Shown here one piece after another: positions 5,773 through 9,269 of a DNA stretch of 41,369 bases. This DNA is from Gallionella sp. Its GTDB lineage: Bacteria > Pseudomonadota > Gammaproteobacteria > Burkholderiales > Gallionellaceae. The position numbers and the translations under genes were made by a program. The notes under the pieces are model-generated. The model saw nothing but the letters and a program-made list of their open reading frames with translations, did not search any database and was not told where the DNA came from. The stretch is from assembly GCA_025350705.1 (NCBI GenBank), contig JANXXH010000130.1, positions 1 to 41,369 of the forward strand, given 5' to 3'. Position 1 is the stretch's first letter; every line of letters starts with the position of its first letter.

Positions 5773-6015
5773 ATGACCACCCCGGAAATCATTGAACAAC
5801 ATATCTCGCAGGGTATGATCACCACATATCTCAGCGTGGAAGGTGACGGACGGCATTTCGAGGCCGTGGTGGTCAGCGAAGAATTCGCGGGCAAGAGCCG
5901 CGTGCAACGACACCAGCATGTGTTCAAGGTACTGGGAGACCGGATGCGCGACGAGATGATCCATGCGCTGTCCATCAAAACCTACACGCCGCAAGAGTGG
6001 GAAAATAGTCGTTAG
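5773..6015 (+). CDS. ibaG: BolA/IbaG family protein
   Basis: BolA-like fold sequence (VEGDGRHFEAVVVSEEFAGKSRVQRHQHVFKVLGDRMRDEMIHALSIKTYTPQEW) between mla operon and murA. Confidence 0.88.
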   Translation: MTTPEIIEQHISQGMITTYLSVEGDGRHFEAVVVSEEFAGKSRVQRHQHVFKVLGDRMRDEMIHALSIKTYTPQEWENSR

Positions 6016-6020
6016 ACGTT

Positions 6021-7364
<1,344 letters not shown>

Positions 7365-7395: not shown

Positions 7396-8487
7396 AAAAT
7401 AAATCACTCTGACCCTTGGTAGTGCTCATCGATTTTTTTGGACAACTTTGTTTCACCATTGCACCGAAAGCAACTTTACGTCGACGATGATTTTAAATTT
7501 GTCACTTTCGTGTGCAGAAGAGCTCGTTAGTAATGCGTATTTTCCATTCGGACTGAGCTTGATAGAGATGAACTCTTCATCCTTCCTATGATCACCTGAA
7601 ATAAGCGGCCCCACCTCTCCAACTCCAACAATGTAGGCGTACAGCGCAGACTTATTAGTGCCGTTTTCTTTCCTAATAAAGAGTGCGACTTTTTCGTCTT
7701 GTCTTGGCGACACAGACACGTCTATATGACCTCTAGTCAACTTCACTTGCTTGTGGCTAGCCTTCGATATCCGACTAATTCCATTCAGCGTTAAATCCTC
7801 GTCCGTTAGTCTCGTAAACCAAAGGTAATGCCGTGTTACTGCCGGATATACTCCAGAAGTATACTTCCTTGGCTTGCCACCACTCGGTAGAAATTGAATC
7901 CCATCGCGCTCATCCTCACCAGTATAAAAAAGACCCCGCTCCCACTTATCCCATGCTGGGCTGCCATAAGCTTCAGGCAATGGTTTAAAATCCTCTAAAT
8001 TCTGCTCCTGAAAGCTAGTCTTATTCCAATCTGGTACTGGCAGGCTCTGAATTACAGTTGCTCCTTCACCGAATCCGACAGCCACATATATCTGTGTATC
8101 TGCCCAATCAATTGAATCAACCCCAATATCCGGCTGCGGCTTTAAAAAATATATGCAATTTTCTTTGGTTCTCGTAGAAACACTGTAGATACACAAATGA
8201 ATACGCTGGTCAGACTCGTGATATTCGGCAAGCAGTATCCGAGTGCCATCTGGTGACCAAGCAGAAGCGCTCGTGCCATTAACACCCGGTGCAGCAATTT
8301 TTGTGGTGCCTGTGATTTCTACGGCTTTACAGGTTGTTGTAACGACGCCTACCGTGCCCCCACCAACCAAAGCTAAATACAGTAATGCCCGACTAGGCCA
8401 GTTTATTGTGTGCAACATAAAGCCTCCGTTTCTGTACTGGCAGCTAAAACGCACGGTAAAACGCACGGGGTCAGAGTGATTTATTTT
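7396..8487. mobile_element. Candidate mobile cassette bounded by a 20-nt perfect inverted repeat, containing one beta-propeller gene
   Basis: aaaataaatcactctgaccc (7396-7415) is the exact reverse complement of gggtcagagtgatttatttt (8468-8487); sits between murA and hisG. Mobility is inferred. Confidence 0.5.
7453..8418 (-). CDS. Hypothetical TolB/PD40-like beta-propeller protein with N-terminal signal/TM segment
   Basis: ASAWSPDGTRILLAEY and IKLSPNGKYALLTSSS propeller-type motifs; ATG at 8418 preceded by CGGAGG SD (ORF can extend to 8502). Confidence 0.7.
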   Translation of the reverse strand: MLHTINWPSRALLYLALVGGGTVGVVTTTCKAVEITGTTKIAAPGVNGTSASAWSPDGTRILLAEYHESDQRIHLCIYSVSTRTKENCIYFLKPQPDIGVDSIDWADTQIYVAVGFGEGATVIQSLPVPDWNKTSFQEQNLEDFKPLPEAYGSPAWDKWERGLFYTGEDERDGIQFLPSGGKPRKYTSGVYPAVTRHYLWFTRLTDEDLTLNGISRISKASHKQVKLTRGHIDVSVSPRQDEKVALFIRKENGTNKSALYAYIVGVGEVGPLISGDHRKDEEFISIKLSPNGKYALLTSSSAHESDKFKIIVDVKLLSVQW

Positions 8488-8627
8488 GCGCGCCACCTCC
8501 ACTCATCCCCGTAAATCGGCGACCAGCCGATCTGCCCCAAAACAAATCAGGACAAATCATATCCGAATTTCAACATAAGCCGCATTTAACGATAGAATGC
8601 GCATCTTTACATAAGCCGCTGAATCCG

Positions 8628-9269
8628 ATGACTATCACCATCGCCTTGTCCAAAGGCCGCATCTTCGAAGAAACCCTGCCGCTGCTGAATGCGGCTGGCA
8701 TCACTGCGCTGGAAGCCCCAGAGTCGTCGCGCAAGCTGATCCTGACTACCAATCGCGCCGATGTGCGGCTGATCATCGTGCGTGCCAGCGATGTGCCGAC
8801 CTATGTGCAATATGGCGCGGCGGACCTCGGCGTGGCGGGCAAGGATGTGCTGGATGAACACGGCGGCACCGGGCTGTATCAGCCGCTGGATCTGAACATC
8901 GCGCGCTGCCGGATGATGGTCGCGGTGCGTGATGATTTCGATTATGAATCCGCGGTGCGTCAGGGCGCGCGCCTGCGTGTGGCAACCAAATATGTGCAGA
9001 CCGCCAGGGCTCACTTCGCCGCAAAGGGCGTGCATGTGGATTTGATCAAGCTGTATGGCTCGATGGAGCTTGCGCCGCTGGTTGGACTGTCCGATGCGAT
9101 CGTGGATCTGGTGAGCAGCGGCAACACCCTCAAGGCCAACCACCTCAAGGCGGTCGAACACATCGCCGACATTTCATCTCGGCTGGTGGTGAACCAGGCC
9201 GCACTCAAATTAAAACATGATGTGATCCAGCCTATGCTGGATGCGTTTGCCAAAGCGATAAAGAAATAG
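8628..9269 (+). CDS. hisG: ATP phosphoribosyltransferase, short form (HisG_S)
   Basis: [20 protein letters not shown]...; 213 aa, lacks the C-terminal regulatory domain. Confidence 0.95.

Follow-up and report, generated by a model that had tools for sequence, protein, structure and literature searches.

The bracketed gene between murA and hisG

We examined a window of 41,369 nucleotides, the whole stretch of Gallionella DNA that was analysed (contig JANXXH010000130.1), taken from an assembly of 2.69 Mb in 161 contigs that is 87% complete. A repeat search of the window recovered a perfect inverted repeat of 20 nt (7396-7415 and 8468-8487), the arms of which are 100% complementary, lie 1052 nt apart and enclose one gene between murA and hisG. 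The features of the locus are:

6096-7364, (+) strand: murA, the left neighbour; its stop codon is followed by 31 nt of spacer homologous to relatives, up to the left arm
7396-7415, (-) strand: left arm, AAAATAAATCACTCTGACCC, a putative TIRYT-type repeat (see below), GGG end towards the cargo gene and A/T tail towards murA
8418-7453, (-) strand: cargo gene, 321 aa from its ATG, the sole ORF between the arms, with the Shine-Dalgarno (SD) sequence GGAGG at 8423-8427
8445-8468, no strand assigned: TAAAACGCACGG twice in tandem, upstream of the cargo gene and adjoining the right arm at its GGGG edge
8467-8487, (+) strand: right arm, GGGGTCAGAGTGATTTATTTT, GGGG towards the cargo gene and tail towards hisG; fits GGGGWSAS
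8488-8627, (+) strand: flank on the right, containing a promoter-like site for hisG (8570-8598); homology to relatives sets in only at about 8551
8628-9269, (+) strand: hisG, the right neighbour

An earlier, sequence-only reading of this DNA had described the perfect repeat and, within it, a single SD-preceded ORF on the strand opposite to murA and hisG with no transposase inside; all of this was confirmed, the 321-aa gene being the only one between the arms. A longer version of that gene, starting with GTG at 8502 and crossing the right arm, is unlikely. The label 'propeller' that the same reading had given to the product has only weak matches behind it, to DPPIV_N (E=0.0016) and PD40 (E=0.15), in both cases under the Pfam cut-offs; the protein is a possible exported beta-propeller. 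The single-sequence AlphaFold model was uninformative (mean pLDDT 31). The protein had no match in the 157 other genomes of the family, and homologues were likewise absent from its own genome, plasmids, viral contigs, PDB, NCBIfam and PADLOC. The GC content is 45.4% in the bracketed interior and 58.8% in the flanks. Absent from the family genomes and low in GC, the cargo gene is foreign to its host.

The repeat itself is rare in its surroundings. No further copy was present in the window at ≤3 mismatches, and the 15-nt core of the arms was found at only two sites of the assembly, the arms themselves. The sequence-only reading had counted an absence of the 20-mer elsewhere in the genome against its own proposal of a mobile unit, and indeed the 20-mer occurs nowhere but in the two arms. 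As the arms are identical over 20 nt and absent elsewhere in the genome, they most likely arrived together. A target-site duplication is not visible in the window sequence at the junctions of the block. A chance origin of the repeat, for which its short length and nothing else speaks, is negligible: shuffled controls gave 0.00 matches at ≤3 mismatches, and the sequence is part of a recognised repeat family in other genomes.

That the gene was inserted between murA and hisG, as had been proposed, is supported by its absence from the 157 family genomes and by the short distance between murA and hisG (5-257 nt) in 56 of the 64 genus relatives with a contig that spans the site. The spacer of the other eight measures 0.8-1.7 kb and holds different genes, and the murA-hisG spacer is thus a variable spot, or hotspot. 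The single genes found there, which differ between relatives (L023-L025, L028, L033, L036, L048, L177), encode a membrane protein, a PIN-domain protein and methyltransferase- and glycosyltransferase-like proteins, mostly with a separate promoter region for hisG. The suggested comparison with an empty site, for which we searched 69 relatives, placed the left junction, where the homology with relatives ends no more than a few nt short of the left arm. The right junction could not be placed in this way, since 8488-8550 has no counterpart in the relatives and homology resumes at about 8551; a precise empty site was therefore not recovered among them. Two further repeats were seen near this site: a cluster upstream of murA (6009-6093) in which a unit like GTTAGTCGCTAGTCGTTAGT (CTAACGACTAGCGACTA) recurs in direct and inverted orientation, a separate repeat family, and, behind the PIN-domain gene of one relative (G057, L177 at about 1755-1813), a GCCTAAC...GTTAGCC stretch that looks like an integron attC site and has a predicted fold no stronger than that of shuffled sequences.

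Family assignment of the arms

Di Nocera et al. 2013 (PMC3733652) gave the name TIRYT to Y1 transposases with terminal inverted repeats (TIRs), many of which share the consensus GGGGWSAS. Quentin et al. 2018 (PMC6006769) placed most TIRYTs in their subclass 2.1, described as being without REP-like structures, and reported subclass 2.1 / TIRYT in about 15% of the surveyed strains, without a known role; the canonical criterion for REP/RAYT given there is a hairpin with the tetranucleotide GT[AG]G at its foot. The right arm fits the TIR consensus fully (GGGGTCAG), and the left arm, which has AGGGTCAG where GGGGTCAGAGTGATTTATTTT carries a fourth G, fits it in 7 of 8 positions. Neither GTAG nor GTGG is present at the inspected arms. 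Because they fit GGGGWSAS and are without the GTAG foot of true REPs, the arms are assigned, by their sequence, to the TIRYT-type repeats (of the GGGGTCAGAGT type) rather than to the GTAG REPs.

Repeats of this kind are found next to Y1 genes in other genomes. In a sister genome (G053, L015), CAGGGGTCAGAGTGATTTGTTTT lies directly 5' of the gene (7046-7774 of L015) for a 242-aa Y1_Tnp protein (MPRRPRLSLAGLPQHIVQRGNN...) that is near the REP-associated tyrosine transposases (Pfam, NCBIfam), and the right arm is identical in 20 of 21 nt to the repeat GGGGTCAGAGTGATTTGTTTT directly upstream of that gene. A second copy of the CAGGGGTCAGAGTGATTTGTTTT stretch nearby is accompanied by just the initial part of the upstream region, and the adjoining Y1 gene at the same locus has inverted ends of the GGGGTCAGCATCGCA type. 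Two Arsukibacterium genomes (L081, L082) contain a Y1/TIRYT gene between hairpin dimers with a GGGTCAGAGT core, together with roughly 11-18 exact copies of GGGTCAGAGTGATTT per genome, and an Arsukibacterium hairpin, GGGTCAGAGTGATTTATTTGTAAAATAAATCACTCTGACCC (L007), holds the left arm in 20 of 20 and the right arm in 19 of 20 positions. The link between repeat and Y1 gene in these organisms is one of position, as read from their sequences. The hint of the sequence-only reading that the GGGTCAGAGT core resembles REP/RAYT (Y1) sequences was therefore right with respect to the Y1 transposases, given the G053 repeat that abuts a Y1_Tnp gene, and wrong with respect to the family, which is TIRYT and not GTAG REP/RAYT. 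The Arsukibacterium dimers have the form AAAAAGGGTCAGAGTGATTTT...CTGACCCTTTTT and could act as two-way transcription terminators. We considered whether they delimit a cassette array and rejected it: the repeats, hairpin dimers and singles, lie in a polysaccharide gene cluster that is itself conserved, and the genes they separate are therefore not cargo.

No TIRYT homologue was found in the window's own assembly at E≤1e-10 (87% completeness), and its one Y1_Tnp gene (G000 contig C56, L020 2400-2940) belongs to a different type (MVNYRRNLVPGGTYFF...), with flanking TAGCCCGGATG...CCGGG repeats that are probably its own REP family. The exact 19-mer was present in only three stretches among 84,980 genomes, none of them with a bracketed gene. 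Phages, plasmids and viral contigs gave no convincing match to the arm repeat, and order-wide and class-wide scans returned scattered single matches, in the class scan at about the level of the reversed-pattern control.

Several known systems share part of this organization:

i) The TIRtrons (TIRYT elements) resemble the block in having terminal inverted repeats with GGGGWSAS, the core being the one found next to Y1 genes in the sister genome and in Arsukibacterium. Unlike them, the block holds a cargo gene in place of a Y1_Tnp gene, its GGGG faces inward, and its genome contains no amplified repeat family. Cargo is not described in the parts consulted of PMC3733652 and PMC6006769.

ii) The REP/RAYT systems and REPINs (GTAG palindromes) likewise combine short repeats tied to a Y1 transposase, inverted pairs and presumed single-strand mobilisation, whereas the arms lack the GTAG foot, form no hairpin when alone, occur in two copies rather than many dispersed ones and have 1 kb of cargo between them.

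iii) Bacterial MITEs with a passenger gene show perfect short inverted repeats, no transposase and presumed movement in trans; the block differs in being single copy, without a visible target-site duplication, related to Y1 and not DDE enzymes, and reversed in polarity with respect to the parent.

Inversion sites (a phase-variable cassette), or an unrelated DDE insertion sequence whose transposase was lost and whose ends remain, would likewise frame one gene with a perfect inverted repeat. Such an origin is very improbable here, as the core matches TIRYT repeats and no known inversion system, the ORFs around the block include no recombinase, and no target-site duplication is visible.

Polarity and recurrence in the genus

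The repeats of the window are near-identical to a transposase-gene repeat in other genomes only, and there with opposite polarity. Around the TIRYT genes of the family GGGG forms the outer edge of the element, whereas in the window it points inward to the cargo gene and the A/T tails point outward to murA and hisG. With the arms thus reversed, the block is not a TIRYT element in which the transposase was swapped for cargo. With the 20-mer found nowhere else in the genome either, a simple MITE-like swap is not supported; movement in trans, which the sequence-only reading had proposed, is an inference.

We scanned 76 genomes of the genus for the common related repeat GGGGACAGACCACGNTTT and collected neighbouring inverted copies at a distance of 0.4-4 kb. 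The four (+)...(-) pairs all had a TIRYT gene inside. Among the pairs without a TIRYT gene, formed by the repeat GGGGACAGACCACG, the arrangement was (-)...(+), as in the window, in eight cases and (+)...(-) in none (two-sided p=0.008), or 5:0 (p=0.06) after removal of three pairs with adjacent further copies. The check proposed earlier, whether the repeat flanks other cargo genes or Y1 genes, gave brackets of the related repeat GGGGACAGACCACG and the near-identical repeat at the G053 Y1_Tnp gene in sister genomes, and no further copy in the window's own genome.

The interior of the (-)...(+) intervals is 10-15 GC points under the flanks in L198, L199, L200 and L202, and the gap is about 5 points or less in L203, L185, L213, L184 and L230. 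Several intervals encode proteins similar to known anti-phage defence components: NsnA/PD-T4-2_A (L198, E=3e-29), PD-T7-3 (L199, E=6e-38) and a TIR-domain effector (L202, E=1e-10). The cargo of the window shows no such defence-gene likeness, unlike that of several sister brackets. Single repeats may also have low-GC genes on their GGGG side, including an NsnA/PD-T4-2_A-like (L219) and a PDC-M43AB-like gene (L226). Overall, 40 of 63 repeats had the lower GC on their GGGG side (p=0.0014), as did 22 of 29 when one repeat per locus was taken from loci fetched solely for a repeat (p=0.0026), and 18 of 25 with orthologous sites removed (p=0.012). At the DUF2442 loci the sequence on the tail side is conserved and divergence begins beyond the GGGG. 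The number of pairs surveyed is small, and there are other reasons for which defence genes cluster in hotspots.

Some of these repeats overlap with, or border on, resident genes. In L198, L199, L200, L186, L205 and L219 the last codons of the DUF2442 gene (...KTWSVP) are provided by GGGGACAGACCACG, which overlaps the 3' end of that gene, and in L226 (5330) and L199 (9466, reversed coordinates) a zeta-toxin-like gene begins directly at the repeat's tail side, with different cargo on the GGGG side. Local tandem arrays of GGGGACAGACCACG occur in L191 (G084), L184, L234 and L235, in which the A/T-rich spacers of 6-9 nt before the GGGG are duplicated (AACAGCATT twice), which suggests local amplification.

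The inward polarity might also stem from a larger composite, in which the gene lay between two TIRYT elements or hairpin dimers of which the outer halves were lost and the inner arms left. The inner arms of neighbouring dimers are indeed oriented (-)...(+), as in L081/L082 and L185. We regard such a remnant as improbable, since outer arms have left no trace in the sequence beyond 7396 or 8487 and the two arms terminate at the same base.

A proposed cassette moved in trans and its main alternative

Our preferred explanation, held tentatively and at slightly less than an even chance, is that the block of 1,092 bp represents a cassette with one foreign gene and TIRYT-type ends, placed in trans by a Y1 transposase of the TIRYT kind. 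The Y1 HUH enzymes are described as cutting and joining single-stranded DNA at hairpins (PMC3733652, PMC6006769). A TIRYT encoded outside the block would act on the arms, which, joined end to end, form a perfect palindrome of 40 nt (20-nt arms) that is predicted to fold into a strong DNA hairpin, similar to those on either side of the Arsukibacterium TIRYT gene. The junction of the putative circle would consist of GGGTCAGAGTGATTTATTTT joined to AAAATAAATCACTCTGACCC; cutting of the single-stranded circle at the tip of this hairpin, followed by insertion into the variable murA-hisG spacer, would produce the observed ends with GGGG inward. As the host assembly contains no TIRYT, the enzyme would under this model be located elsewhere, have been lost, or be encoded in the missing 13%. 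The inward GGGG also counts against the cassette, as it leaves the cargo outside what would normally be the interior of a TIRYT element; the cassette is known in one copy only, and a cargo role for TIRYTs was not found in the open-licence literature searched.

The main rival to the cassette is separate insertion of repeats at the edges of foreign DNA. The gene would then have reached the murA-hisG hotspot otherwise, by homologous recombination of incoming DNA, and two single TIRYT repeats, settling at its edges independently or from one source, would be markers rather than the vehicle. This is a real, if lesser, possibility: repeats standing alone are frequent in the genus as well as in Arsukibacterium, the genes in the murA-hisG spacer of other relatives are without such repeats, and the two arms around one low-GC interval with a PtuA-like gene (L223, E=1e-150) belong to different repeat types, a finding easier to reconcile with independent insertions. 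Against it, the genome contains just two copies, which share all 20 nt and lie in inverted orientation on either side of the one foreign gene, and the strict (-)...(+) polarity (8:0) is unexpected from random single insertions.

The cassette explanation can be extended to the genus, in a form that we consider doubtful: TIRYT-type Y1 transposases may run a gene-cassette system in which single foreign genes or small operons, often anti-phage, are captured between short GGGG-inward repeats and carried into chromosomal hotspots by single-strand cutting and joining, and the gene in the window would then be an example of these cassettes and a candidate for a new defence gene. If TIRYT repeats do bracket and move foreign genes, these proteins would gain a function, small defence genes could spread without encoding a transposase, and pairs of GGGG-inward repeats would provide a handle in the search for unknown cassette genes.
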